Below, one piece after another: positions 51,836 to 55,797 of a DNA stretch of 64,000 nt; positions within the stretch are counted from its first letter, which is position 1, and every line of letters starts with the position of its first letter. The stretch covers positions 33,553,116 to 33,617,115 of the forward strand of contig NC_089275.1 of the NCBI RefSeq assembly GCF_963678975.1, written 5' to 3'. The stretch is from Dysidea avara (Eukaryota; Porifera; Demospongiae; Dictyoceratida; Dysideidae). Both the position numbers and the translations under genes were made by a program. The notes beneath the pieces are model-generated. The model did no database searches. It worked only from the letters and a program-made list of their open reading frames with translations, and was not told the DNA's origin.

Positions 51836-54800
51836 GTAAGTACTGTAGGATGTTTGTGGTTTTGCACCTAAATGCTTTATCAAATAAATCTTACTCCCAC
51901 CCTCAACAAGAGTTTATCAGTTTATCAAGTACTGTCAGTGTTTATACACTCGGGAGGGGGGGGGGAGAATACCAGCAAGTTGCTAGAAGAGGGAGTAGCA
52001 AAGATAAATGGACATTTTAAAAAAAATTTATAATTTACCTAGGTTGAATACATTTAGGGGTAGTTAAGCATTCTTGACTATCATGTTCTAGTTAGAGCAT
52101 GCCCCTCTCCTGTGGGAATTTTTTAAATGTATCAAAAGATTGGAGGCTTTTGTGTGTAGCATGTGTGTATAGTCTGTATGTGTACTCTGTGTGTGTCTGT
52201 ATGTGTGTGTCTGTGTGTGTGTGTGTGTTGGGTGGGTGTGGGGAAGCACCCCACCCAGGTGTAACATGAATGGGTACCTGGTATTTACTGACGAAACAAA
52301 TGCCCAACTGTCCTTGTGTTGCTTAGTGGTGTTGAGGTCATTGTGGAAGTTTGGGTTCTACAACTTCTCTCAGTGACACTTGGGCAGTCGTCCTGCAGGT
52401 TACTAGCCCTGCCCCAGTAGAATTTGTCTGCACAAGGCTCAAGCGCCTGAGTGGTGCACAGGCATCCCAGTGCTGGTTCACTGGACAACAATAGCTGTCT
52501 TTCACACAGCTGCCATGGGCTTTACTTTGCTCTGTGTGTATGTCACGTGTGCATGCGTGTGTAGTATGTGCATGTGCGTGTGTGTGCGCGTGTGTGTGTA
52601 GTATGTGAGTGTGTGTGTGTGTGTGTGGGTGTGTGTGTGTGTGTGTGTGTGTGTGTGTGTGTGTGTGTGTGTGTGTGTGTGTGTGTGTGTGTGTGTGTGT
52701 GTGTGTGTGTGTGTGTGTGTGTGTGTGTGTGTGTGTGTTACATAAGTTGATGTCCTGTTGGACATCACCGTATGGTGGTCTGCTATCCAGGTCCAGGTGT
52801 GTGTCAGGTACACCTTAATTGGTGGAACTTCATTCTCTGGACCTTAAGCGTACTATTCCCTCCTGGATTACTCACACCCCCCTAGGATGATTTGCCAGCA
52901 TTGACTCTTACGTAGGTACCTGAATAGTCTACAGGTGAATCCATTATTTCTGGTACATAGGTATGACCATATGTACAACAGTTGAAGATTTAATCTTTTC
53001 TACTTTTATTTATTGAGTCCATTGTAGAGAGTATTATGGACTCTTCGTCAAATGCAATGTTGCACTCGTGTATTGTTATGCAGTATACCGTATGTATTAA
53101 TGTGAGATTTGTTTGATTGCAGCATCACTTCTGAATCGATGTGTATGTGGGACGCAGTGTTACATACGTTGTCAAAAGTGCAAAGTATGCAATAGAACGT
53201 TTGAAAAGAAGAGGAGTGCGCCACTGCCCCCTGACAAGCAATACAGGAAGCACCCTTCCAACACATGGAAGCTTCTGAAGGAGAAGGTACATAGTATAAA
53301 TAATATGTATAGCTGCAACTTGCTTTATTAAATGGGCAACTACGTAAAGCATTTTTTTATTCATAGTGTTGTGTGTGTGCATGTGTGTACTGTTAAACAA
53401 TCCTCCTGCTGGCTACTAGGCCTGCAGCCATCCCGGAAGGATTTGGCTGCACCAGACTTATATAAGCACCTGATTGGTGCACACTGCACAGGCATGCCAG
53501 TGCTGTCTCGCTGTGAAGATATGCTGTATGTTTTCGTGCAGTAAGCTTTGCTTTGCTTGTTTTACCTTCGTGTGTATTTGTGTGTGCATGTGCATACATG
53601 CATGCTTCTGTGCTTGTGGTATACGTGTTTGTGTGTGAGTTAGCATAGCTACGTAAGTAGTTGGGGCATCGACCTGGTATCCAAGGGTTCCAGTCGCTGC
53701 GTAGTTGATGTTGTTTTTGTTTCCTTGAGCAAGAAATTTTACTTGCACTGCTCCAGTCTACCCAGTTGCATAATGGGGACCTGGTGCCAACTGGGTAAGC
53801 GAATGCCCAACTGTCCTTGTTTCACCTAATGGTGTTGGGGCTGTTGTGGAACTTAGGGCTTCAGACCTTGAAGATTCTTTTTCTTGTTGTTTCAGCATAA
53901 ACTTCTAAATACATGCAATTATGTGGTATGATTAATGTTGCATTTGATATGACAAACCCGATATTTAAGACCATAACATGTTAATATTGTACACTTGCAG
54001 GCACAGCAGCTGCATTACAATGGATATGACATTGCCATTGTAATGCACAAGCGGAATGCTAAGAGAAGAACATGGTATACATATGGGACTGATGGGGTGG
54101 GGATTGAATTTTTGAAGAAAAAAGACACTGTAAAGAAGTTGTGGAAGGCATACGTTCGAAAGTATTATAGTGAAAGTATGTGTTAACGTGCTGTACTGAT
54201 GATGTGAGCTGTATACACATATAACACTTTATTGTAGTGACGAGTGTTAATGGATCAACCAGTTGCAGAAGTAAGAGCATTAACTTATTTTCATTTGTAG
54301 AGTACAAATTTTATTGTAGTGATGAGTGTTAATGGGTTGGCCACTGGAGGAAGTAAGAACGGCAACATGATTTTATGTGTAAAATACAAATTTTATTGTA
54401 GCGACGAGTGCTAATGGGTTGGCCACTGGAGGAAGTAAGAACGGCAAAATAATTTCATGTGTAAAATATAAATTTTATTGTAGCGACGAGTGTTAATGGA
54501 TCAACCAGTGGCGGAAGTAAGAGCATTAATTTATTTTCATTTGTAGAGTACAAAATTATATTGTAGCGACAAGTGTTAATGGGTTGGCCACTGGAGGAAG
54601 TAAGAACGGCAACATAATTTCATGCGTAAAATATAAATTTTATTGTAGTGACGAGTGTTAATGGGTTGGCCACTGGAGGAAGTAAGAATGGCAAAATAAT
54701 TTCATGTGTAAAATATAAATTTTATTGTAGCGACCAGTGTTAATGGGTTGGCCACTGGAGGAAGTAAGAATGGCAACACAATTTCATGTGTAAAATATAA

Positions 54801-55797
54801 ATTTTATTGTAGCGACAAGTGTTAATGGGTTGGCCACTGGAGGAAGTAAGAATGGCAAAATAATTTCATATGTAAAATATAAATTTTATTGTAGCGACAA
54901 GTGTTAATGGGTTGACCACTGGAGGAAGTAAGAATGGCAAAATAATTTCATGTGTAAAATATAAATTTTATTGTAGCGACAAGTGTTAATGGGTTGGCCA
55001 CTGGAGGAAGTAAGAATGGCAAAATAATTTCATGTGTAAAATATAAATTTTATTGTAGCGACAAGTGTTAATGGGTTGGCCACTGGAGGAAGTAAGAATG
55101 GCAACACAATTTCATGTGTAAAATATAATTTTATTGTAGCGACAAGTGTTAATGGGTTGGCCACTGGAGGAAGTAAGAATGGCAACACAATTTCATGTGT
55201 AAAATATAAATTTTATTGTAGTGACGAGTGTTAATGGATCAACCAGTGGCAGAAGTAAGAGCATTAATTTTATTTTCATTTGTAGAGTACAAATTTTATT
55301 GTAGTGATGAGTGTTAATGGGTTGGCCACTGGAGGAAGTAGGAACGGCAAAATAATTTCATGTGTAAAGTTTAAATTTTATTGTAGCGACGAGTATTAAT
55401 GGCTTGGCCACTGGAGGAAGTAAGAACGGCAACATAATTTCATGTGTAAAATATAAATTTTATTGTAGTGACGAGTGTTAATGGATCAACCAGTGGCGGA
55501 AGTAAGAGCATTAATTTATTTTCATTTGCAAACTATTACTGTAGTGATGAGTGTTAATGGGTTGACCACTGTAGTGAATGGGTCAGCTACTGAAGCGGGT
55601 AAGGCAGCCACTGTAGTCTTTTTATATTATGTTGTAATCTGTTAACCTTAGTGATTCTGGCTAAACCAAGAAAACGGAGGGTTCGCTGTAAGCAGTGTGA
55701 AGGATGCAAATCTACTGCATGCGGTGAATGCCGATATTGCACCAACCGTAAACTAAAAAAACCTTGCTTACGTACAATTTGTAGCAACCTACAATAA
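51781..55797 (+). CDS. CXXC zinc-finger gene with a tandem micro-exon array (3' part)
   Basis: Exons: 51781-51835, 53123-53286, 54001-54175, then 17 small exons between 54238 and 55598, then 55652-55797. Every junction is GT-AG and phases match throughout. Predicted order: acidic LSDIESSDIEEGPQVEVN; a Cys cluster RCVCGTQCYIRCQKCKVCNR; a basic region with HKRNAKRRTWYTYGTDGVGI and WKAYVRKYYSE; an ~11-residue repeat domain; a C-terminal CXXC-type finger. CXXC fingers usually bind unmethylated CpG, so chromatin or transposon-related DNA binding is plausible. The first exon and promoter were not found. Introns contain SINE and (GT)n sequence. I do not recognise the central domain; a faint resemblance to MADS-type folds is speculative. 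Confidence 0.75.
52140..52500 (+). repeat. SINE-related repeat with GT tract
   Basis: It shares GCCCAACTGTCCTTGTGTTG, CAGGTTACTAGCCCTGCCCC and GTCTGCACAAGGCTC-type words with the copies at 53.4-53.9 and 63.1-63.3 kb. It lies in an intron of the CXXC gene. Confidence 0.65.
52595..52738. repeat. (GT)n microsatellite
   Basis: About 140 bp of nearly pure GT in an intron of the CXXC gene. Confidence 0.97.
53123..53286 (+). CDS. exon with N-terminal Cys cluster
   Basis: Acceptor GTTTGATTGCAG, donor GTACAT. It encodes a C-x-C-x3-C-x3-C-x2-C-x2-C cluster (RCVCGTQCYIRCQKCKVC), then PLPPDKQYRKHPSNTWKLLK. The spacing suggests a small zinc-binding fold. Confidence 0.75.
53400..53880 (+). repeat. SINE-family copy with tRNA-like segment
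   Basis: GTAAGTAGTTGGGGCATCGA and a GGGTTCCAGTCGC B-box-like word at about 53655-53700 are followed by TTTCCTTGAGCAAGAAATTT, CTACCCAGTTGCATAATGGG and GCCCAACTGTCCTTGTTTC. It lies in the CXXC gene intron before 54001. Confidence 0.65.
54001..54175 (+). CDS. exon before the micro-exon array
   Basis: Acceptor ACACTTGCAG. It encodes AQQLHYNGYDIAIVMHKRNA and DTVKKLWKAYVRKYYSE, ending in phase 1 (A|GTATGT). It supplies the first base of the first micro-exon codon. Confidence 0.8.
54238..55598 (+). repeat. 82 bp minisatellite: 16 micro-exons of 33 nt plus one of 54 nt
   Basis: Exons: 54238-54270, 54320-54352, 54402-54434, 54484-54516, 54567-54599, 54649-54681, 54731-54763, 54813-54845, 54895-54927, 54977-55009, 55059-55091, 55140-55172, 55222-55254, 55305-55337, 55387-55419, 55469-55501, 55545-55598. 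Each follows a T-rich acceptor (TTTTATTGTAG in most) and precedes GTAAGA (GTAGGA in unit 14, GTAAGG after the last). Introns are 43-50 nt, mostly 49. In phase 1 the peptides are (T/M)(T/M)SVNG followed by LATGG or STSGG variants. The other two phases meet TGA or TAA in many units. Splicing is inferred from sequence only. Confidence 0.8.
55652..55797 (+). CDS. terminal exon: CXXC-type zinc finger
   Basis: Acceptor GTTAACCTTAG, phase 1. It encodes ILAKPRKRRVRCKQCEGCKS and ACGECRYCTNRKLKKPC, then LRTICSNLQ and TAA (55795-55797). C-x2-C-x2-C-x5-CG-x-C-x2-C followed by later Cys residues is the CXXC pattern of CFP1, MLL and DNMT1. It is short, and the usual KFGG segment is absent, so DNA binding is uncertain. 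Confidence 0.85.

Follow-up and report, generated by a model that had tools for sequence, protein, structure and literature searches.

Does a minisatellite within a putative gene of the sponge Dysidea avara lie silent in an intron, or is it itself coding? The window, the whole stretch of 64,000 nt that was analysed (contig C4, 33553116-33617115), contains an array with an 82-bp period directly upstream of an exon for a CXXC zinc finger, and every unit of the array holds a short exon-like stretch. The array very probably consists of tandem symmetric micro-exons of a protein-coding gene, the minisatellite unit being a whole intron-exon module within the phase-1 intron before the CXXC exon. The recurrence of this arrangement across a gene family in the same genome (550.8 Mb in 108 contigs searched) is much stronger evidence than the single window array.

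Structure of the window array

Tandem Repeats Finder (TRF) detected a period of 82 with 15.7 copies and 87% matches at 54219-55507 of the window. Wraparound alignment to the unit cut the array into 16 complete units, each with a 33-nt exon-like stretch preceded by AG and followed by GTAAGA or GTAGGA, and the introns between these units were 49 nt (12), 50 nt (2), or 48 nt (1) long. A 17th exon of 54 nt (55545-55598) is preceded by a 43-nt intron. The features of the predicted gene are as follows, with micro-exons 1 to 16 placed by unit alignment.

51781..51835, + strand, possible upstream exon (LSDIESSDIEEGPQVEVN), 55 nt between AG and GTAAGT, phase 0 in and phase 1 out, phase fitting the next exon; weak, no homologue seen
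53123..53286, + strand, exon ex1, Cys-rich (SLLNRCVCGTQC...), phase 1 in and phase 0 out; homologous exon at locus L037, 40% identity
54001..54175, + strand, exon ex2 (AQQLHYNGYDIAIVMHKRN...), phase 0 in and phase 1 out; homologues in the same genome by alignment
54219..55598, + strand, putative tandem micro-exon array, 17 exons, 82-bp unit (TRF and unit alignment)
54238..54270, + strand, micro-exon 1 (33 nt)
54320..54352, + strand, micro-exon 2 (33 nt)
54402..54434, + strand, micro-exon 3 (33 nt)
54484..54516, + strand, micro-exon 4 (33 nt)
54567..54599, + strand, micro-exon 5 (33 nt)
54649..54681, + strand, micro-exon 6 (33 nt)
54731..54763, + strand, micro-exon 7 (33 nt)
54813..54845, + strand, micro-exon 8 (33 nt)
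54895..54927, + strand, micro-exon 9 (33 nt)
54977..55009, + strand, micro-exon 10 (33 nt)
55059..55091, + strand, micro-exon 11 (33 nt)
55140..55172, + strand, micro-exon 12 (33 nt)
55222..55254, + strand, micro-exon 13 (33 nt)
55305..55337, + strand, micro-exon 14 (33 nt; donor GTAGGA)
55387..55419, + strand, micro-exon 15 (33 nt)
55469..55501, + strand, micro-exon 16 (33 nt)
55545..55598, + strand, micro-exon 17 (54 nt), by inspection like two fused 27-nt repeats, SVNGLTT + VVNGSAT
55652..55797, + strand, terminal exon with TET-type CXXC zinc finger, stop TAA (Pfam and family profile)

Phase 1 was open in all 17 micro-exons, and both the exon ending at 54175 and the CXXC exon starting at 55652 are phase 1. 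The phase-2 reading meets TAA in each 33-nt unit and the phase-0 reading TGA in several. The predicted linker thus comprises 16 x 11 + 18 = 194 residues, with a unit peptide of the TTSVNGLATGG type. The initial annotation had described 17 tandem micro-exons (16 of 33 nt and one of 54 nt) at an 82-bp period, separated by introns of nearly constant 49 nt, with phase 1 as the only frame open throughout and matching the exons on either side; all of this was borne out. Its designation of the units as symmetric phase-1 micro-exons holds in so far as they behave so in sequence, as judged by the frame-blind test and the 355-unit census described below.

An unspliced reading of the array was rejected: nine of the 11 consensus unit lengths do not divide by three, which rules out unspliced read-through of those arrays, and TAA or TGA occurs in the other frames. 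A scan of the window against Rfam at the gathering threshold returned no RNA family.

Recurrence of the array in a CXXC gene family

Loci were collected by searching the genome with the CXXC exon of the window (18 places, E up to 0.001) and with that of a sister copy (39 places, E up to 0.01); ex1-ex2 matched 22 places and the ex2 of a sister copy 13. Twenty-six CXXC loci were fetched with upstream DNA, namely the window, its copy on contig C14, and 16 + 8 others. A tandem array stands immediately upstream of the CXXC exon in 18 of the 26. The other eight comprise L053 with two degenerate units, L049, whose 27-bp repeat lacks splice modules, and six loci on contig C12 in which TRF found no such array. 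A further locus, L054, was reached via the repeat pattern and is the 19th with an array. The initial annotation described one such gene; arrays of this kind stand at 19 loci of this genome.

Nine unit families can be distinguished among the repeats, situated just upstream of the CXXC exon and for the most part not recognisably similar to one another:

A, 82 bp with a 33-nt exon (window and C14 copy)
B, 88 bp with a 42-nt exon
C, 83 or 78 bp with a 30-nt exon (joins L037 and L045)
D, 82 bp with a 30-nt exon
E, about 78 bp with a 30-33-nt exon
F, 80 bp with a 33-nt exon (contigs C2, C5, C13, C14)
G, 132 bp with a 75-nt exon
H, 80 bp with a 27-nt exon (contigs C3, C11, C12, C13)
I, 107 bp with a 60-nt exon

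The consensus exons span 27-75 nt, all of them multiples of three, and the consensus introns 46-57 nt. Typical unit peptides are TTSVNGLATGG, VGQNIAGQDAMATT, AATLTSANSS, VATPTAPRTS, VTAVQVALPN, VGLTQTATQSQ, VVNGSQQGT, and ASDGVANSNTTVPVMPPHVS. In a tree of the CXXC exons (19 rows, 42 columns) the array loci cluster (2 changes), with 2 of 15 inner branches well supported; a single origin of the array loci is neither shown nor excluded by this tree.

The six array-free CXXC loci (L033-L036, L042, L046) cluster on C12 at 7.6-8.1 Mb. Two of them, L035 and L046, have a common region, whose L035 version matches the BACK (BTB/Kelch) domain; a repeat of about 51 bp lies upstream in L035. On contig C4, seven near-identical CXXC-exon matches are spread over 1 Mb at 47.7-48.7 Mb; L053 is the one fetched, and the other six are among the CXXC matches outside the 26 loci, as are copies on C4, C7, and C11.

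Frame and splice-site conservation across arrays

A rule blind to reading frame was applied to every TRF consensus of 60-140 bp, in which the strongest donor was paired with the nearest AG that lay 43 nt or more beyond it. The remaining interval was divisible by three in 24 of 25 array consensus rows; the exception, from the C14 copy, was a composite unit of 137 bp. Thirteen other minisatellites in the same sequences served as a comparison; 12 gave an interval, and this was divisible by three in 2.

The unit census covered 355 units in 20 arrays, with L039b left out. AG and GT were found within 6 nt of the aligned boundaries in 350 units, the exon length was divisible by three in 345, and in 342 the exon was additionally open. 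Among distinct length changes, multiples of three made up 13 of 18 in exons and 8 of 28 in introns (Fisher p=0.004). In families C, D, and F, which by inspection have NAG-NAG acceptors, a unit that has lost one AG often still has a second one 3 nt further along; with the threes explicable by NAGNAG removed, the counts were 8 of 13 for exons and 4 of 24 for introns (p=0.008). When CXXC acceptors were scored without regard to phase, the best-scoring one was phase 1 in 14 of the 17 array loci whose core was found, as well as in L053, and in 4 of 6 array-free relatives.

Short introns of 46-57 nt suit splicing by intron definition. In two CCT chaperonin loci of the same genome, 8 of 10 measured introns were 49-65 nt; the remaining two were one of 218 nt and one of 30 nt, poorly resolved and without AG. 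The array intron size is ordinary for this genome and fits intron definition.

Differences in unit number between sister copies

The window array lies in a segment that recurs on contig C14:

49332..58352, no strand assigned, segment recurring on C14 in pieces about 94-98% identical, broken by insertions; holds the sister copy with its 11 micro-exons; right edge not reached

The left edge of this shared segment, at window position 49332, is sharp. The C14 copy carries 11 predicted micro-exons against 17 in the window, namely the 54-nt exon and ten units, of which nine have 33 nt and one has 6 nt, giving a linker of 119 residues versus 194. The 6-nt unit arose by an in-frame 27-nt deletion that kept AG and GT. 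By inspection, the first and last units of the two arrays match and about six middle units are missing or extra. Copy numbers by TRF also differed within other sister sets (28.6 vs 22.6; 27.8, 27.8, 14.8, and 5.3; 23.2, 27.2, 21.2, and 33.2; 7.3 vs 15.3). Unit number was expected from the initial annotation to change without breaking frame, and between loci the sister copies do vary in unit count with the array frame kept.

The CXXC finger and apparent selection on the flanking exons

Eight zinc-binding cysteines without a KFGG loop constitute the TET-type CXXC motif. The terminal exon of the window has eight Cys and, by inspection, no KFGG, which fits this type; L031 and L045 each lack one Cys. 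Against Pfam zf-CXXC (PF02008) the window exon scored 24.9 bits and two sister exons 21.9 and 22.8 bits, all below the curated cut-off of 26.5. The family profile matched TET CXXC structure chains with E 1.9e-6, 2.4e-6, and 1.2e-5, and MLL, KDM2, and DNMT1 more weakly. Known TET-type CXXC fingers bind CpG DNA, and the protein of the window gene may likewise bind DNA. A Pfam search of ex1-ex2 matched no family, the structure predicted for ex2 had a pLDDT of 54, and no ex2 turned up in the 10 kb fetched for L031 and L045. Conceivably, ex1-ex2 may resemble a MADS box.

The flanking exons appear to be under purifying selection. In six sister pairs (two share L047), from which indel pairs and one pseudogene pair were excluded, pN/pS was 0.23, nine changes being synonymous and eight nonsynonymous (p=0.003). 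Pooled over all pairs but L037/L043 in an ungapped comparison, pN/pS was 0.60, a value inflated because two copies (L041, L052) contain indels. The CXXC exon of L052 is open, with an in-frame deletion of three residues.

Evidence against micro-exons and alternative explanations

Several observations weigh against the interpretation of the arrays as micro-exons, the first of which concern splice-site choice. The best donor and acceptor of the 82-bp consensus unit were compared with 2000 first-order randomised versions, and 708 of these matched or beat the splice words of the window unit. A minisatellite copies one unit, so that the 17 copies amount to one observation and the window array alone is weak evidence for splicing; splice-word strength in one unit was accordingly dropped as proof. 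About 19 nt before their acceptor, B-type introns (GTAAGAGCATTAATT...) hold another TGTAG, and splicing to it would yield frame-breaking exons of 52-53 nt behind an intron of only 30-31 nt. The phase-1 CXXC acceptor of family H comes second to one in phase 2.

Others concern the counts themselves. The 43-nt floor of the frame-blind rule was picked after the units had been seen, and a floor of 40 nt would fail family C, whose AG is at 42; family E, with a 156-bp consensus, is beyond the size range and so outside that test. Families A and G, as well as I and L053, are related by eye as on the CXXC tree, and family C spans L037 and L045, which leaves about seven independent cases rather than nine. 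Among the 350 spliceable units, 8 break the frame or contain a stop, and one of these, a unit of L037 with a stop, would truncate the protein unless skipped; 5 of the 355 are without a splice-site pair.

The residues and some of the copies also count against it. Variants within 14 arrays were 108 nonsynonymous, 55 synonymous, and 4 stop, versus 115, 49, and 3 expected; the two sets are alike, so that the residues look nearly neutral and stops are no rarer than expected, and no purifying selection on micro-exon residues was detected in this count. One of the four stop variants, that in the window, is an artefact of two same-codon changes treated singly, and no window unit bears a stop. Several copies look dead: a stop interrupts the CXXC exon of L043, and in L041 ex2 loses the frame close to its end. 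At L049, a 27-bp repeat of the SSATTTVTP type (193-825, 10.5 copies, no intron-sized gaps) lies between ex2 and the CXXC exon, and its second half shares a 166-residue open frame with CXXC; the start of ex2 is in frame with CXXC but separated from it by a stop, and the end of ex2 and the first repeats are in a different frame. L049 was withdrawn as strong evidence for a clean intronless coding-repeat paralogue on account of the shifted frames. It hints at a repetitive Ser/Thr-rich linker as a family trait, yet the copy is broken or misassembled and proves nothing.

Some of these points would be accommodated if the exons were real and sparingly used, most being skipped and few reaching the mature protein, with the array as a reservoir or splicing decoy. 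Exons of 27-33 nt are generally regarded as short for exon definition, and units with a lost splice site or a stop are harmless only if skipped. We consider this unlikely, since introns of 46-57 nt suit intron definition, CCT genes here use about the same size, and splice sites are retained in 350 of 355 units.

Judged from the distribution of copies, their shared flanks, and the flanking exons, it is improbable that a mobile element carries the family, with the arrays as a side effect of its turnover and not of the evolution of host genes. Close copies are indeed spread over several contigs (H type on C3, C11, C12, and C13; F type on C2, C5, C13, and C14), and further CXXC matches of H-type score are found on C4, C7, and C11. 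However, as much as about 10 kb of flanking DNA is common to sister copies, as in segmental duplications, and the flanking exons look to be under purifying selection; the exon design would stand even if an element origin were true.

Finally, an intronic minisatellite with splice-like words by chance and ex2 spliced straight to the CXXC exon is very unlikely: both exons are phase 1, so that a direct join is also in frame, the splice words of one unit are no better than chance, and the residues look neutral without depletion of stops, but mostly dissimilar unit families at the same place gave intervals divisible by three almost without exception, unlike the other minisatellites, and multiples of three are favoured in exon and not in intron length changes.

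Proposed origin and maintenance of the array

The interpretation as tandem micro-exons suggests a gene layout with an upstream domain in ex2, a low-complexity repetitive linker, and a TET-type CXXC finger at the end, the array sitting in a presumed ancestral phase-1 intron directly before the CXXC exon. A micro-exon born in a phase-1 intron would automatically be 1-1 symmetric if its length were divisible by three, and duplication of exon and intron together would then create an array in which recombination between units preserves the frame. With phase-1 introns on both sides and such an exon length, the frame would survive both the skipping of a unit in splicing and any unequal recombination that adds, removes, or exchanges units, and only the linker length would change. 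The micro-exons are presumably spliced into mRNA, the linker is probably disordered, and unequal exchange is the likely cause of the differences in unit number. Selection would hold splice sites and frame and hardly the residues. Units would drift and be replaced wholesale, so that sister genes share flanking exons and design and not the repeat sequence. The mechanism predicts free unit number, free intron length, exon length constrained modulo three, weak residue constraint, and repeat turnover, as seen.

More generally, the array may represent a splicing-buffered minisatellite, a proposal about as likely as not. The intron in each unit would let the family host fast-mutating repeats of any length (78-107 bp in most families), since splicing would take out the part that breaks the frame, and selection would preserve no more than the splice signals and the divisibility of exon length by three; the linker would have been overwritten about seven times at one intron, and its length could vary by allele and by splicing without loss of frame.

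About 20 loci with one design, nine unit families, and array-free relatives offer a natural series on the origin of tandem micro-exons. The series bears on how intragenic repeats stay frame-safe and on the tolerance of splicing for an uninterrupted run of 15-30 near-identical exons, each about 30 nt long. A further suggestion is that a minisatellite which gene predictors take for intronic can be coding, and such genes may be misannotated.

Comparison with known systems

The initial annotation stated that no described gene has such a design. This does not stand, as Tetrahymena leucine-rich repeat (LRR) genes have tandem exon-plus-intron units in which symmetric 90-bp phase-2 exons encode the repeats; they are the closest precedent found (PMC6564038). 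Young LRR genes of T. thermophila, as described there, have introns of about 257 bp, or 122 bp in a subset, with one ancestral exon type and RNA-seq support (PMC6564038). The likeness extends to a unit of exon plus intron, fixed symmetric exons, a dispersed family, and close paralogues that vary widely in unit number, for which unequal exchange was proposed (PMC6564038). The sponge genes, known from sequence alone, differ from what is described there in having 27-75-nt phase-1 exons, mostly 78-107-bp units, nine unit families at one position, a near-neutral linker, and a TET-type CXXC gene as the setting (PMC6564038). The LRR family was not among the Pfam matches of the flanking exons tested.

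In the micro-exon genes (MEGs) of schistosomes, numerous short exons are symmetric and can be left out in splicing with the frame intact; the coding region consists mostly of symmetric exons of 6-36 nt, and the products are mostly secreted or membrane proteins with observed splice variants (PMC8293314, PMC5825161). The window array exons are symmetric and, apart from the last, 33 nt long; the start of the window gene, and with it the N-terminus of the protein, was not found. Here, unlike in the MEGs as those reports describe them, the exons form a minisatellite of near-identical units and a nuclear-type zinc finger follows (PMC8293314, PMC5825161). Neither the Tetrahymena LRR genes nor the schistosome MEGs are a home for this family. 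In human duplicated genes, internal tandem repeats alter coding sequence and introns between recent paralogues, as minisatellite variation would do here; those are units of about 30 bp with 4 copies on average, in exons or at their borders, and not intron-exon modules (PMC2812944).

A literature search of partial coverage recognised no description of this array design in animals. In the spider flagelliform silk gene, exon and intron reportedly repeat together and are homogenised, both exons and introns being far longer and coding silk repeats rather than forming micro-exons. The zinc-finger minisatellite of PRDM9 is likewise coding with fast turnover, and is said to be a repeat of folded fingers within one exon; here, by contrast, the intron belongs to the repeat unit, and the predicted peptide is of low complexity.

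Other features of the window

A minisatellite with a unit of about 31 bp (GTAGAGAGTTCAGCTACAAACAAATCACCCT type) is dispersed in this genome; it occupies window positions 1-3239, 39752-41535, and 46942-47785, shows higher-order periods of 61, 92, and 123 bp, and also occurs at L033, L036, L041, L042, and L043. An open reading frame at 26567-27154 on the minus strand has matches to ZSWIM1-3 RNaseH-like and MULE transposase domains.

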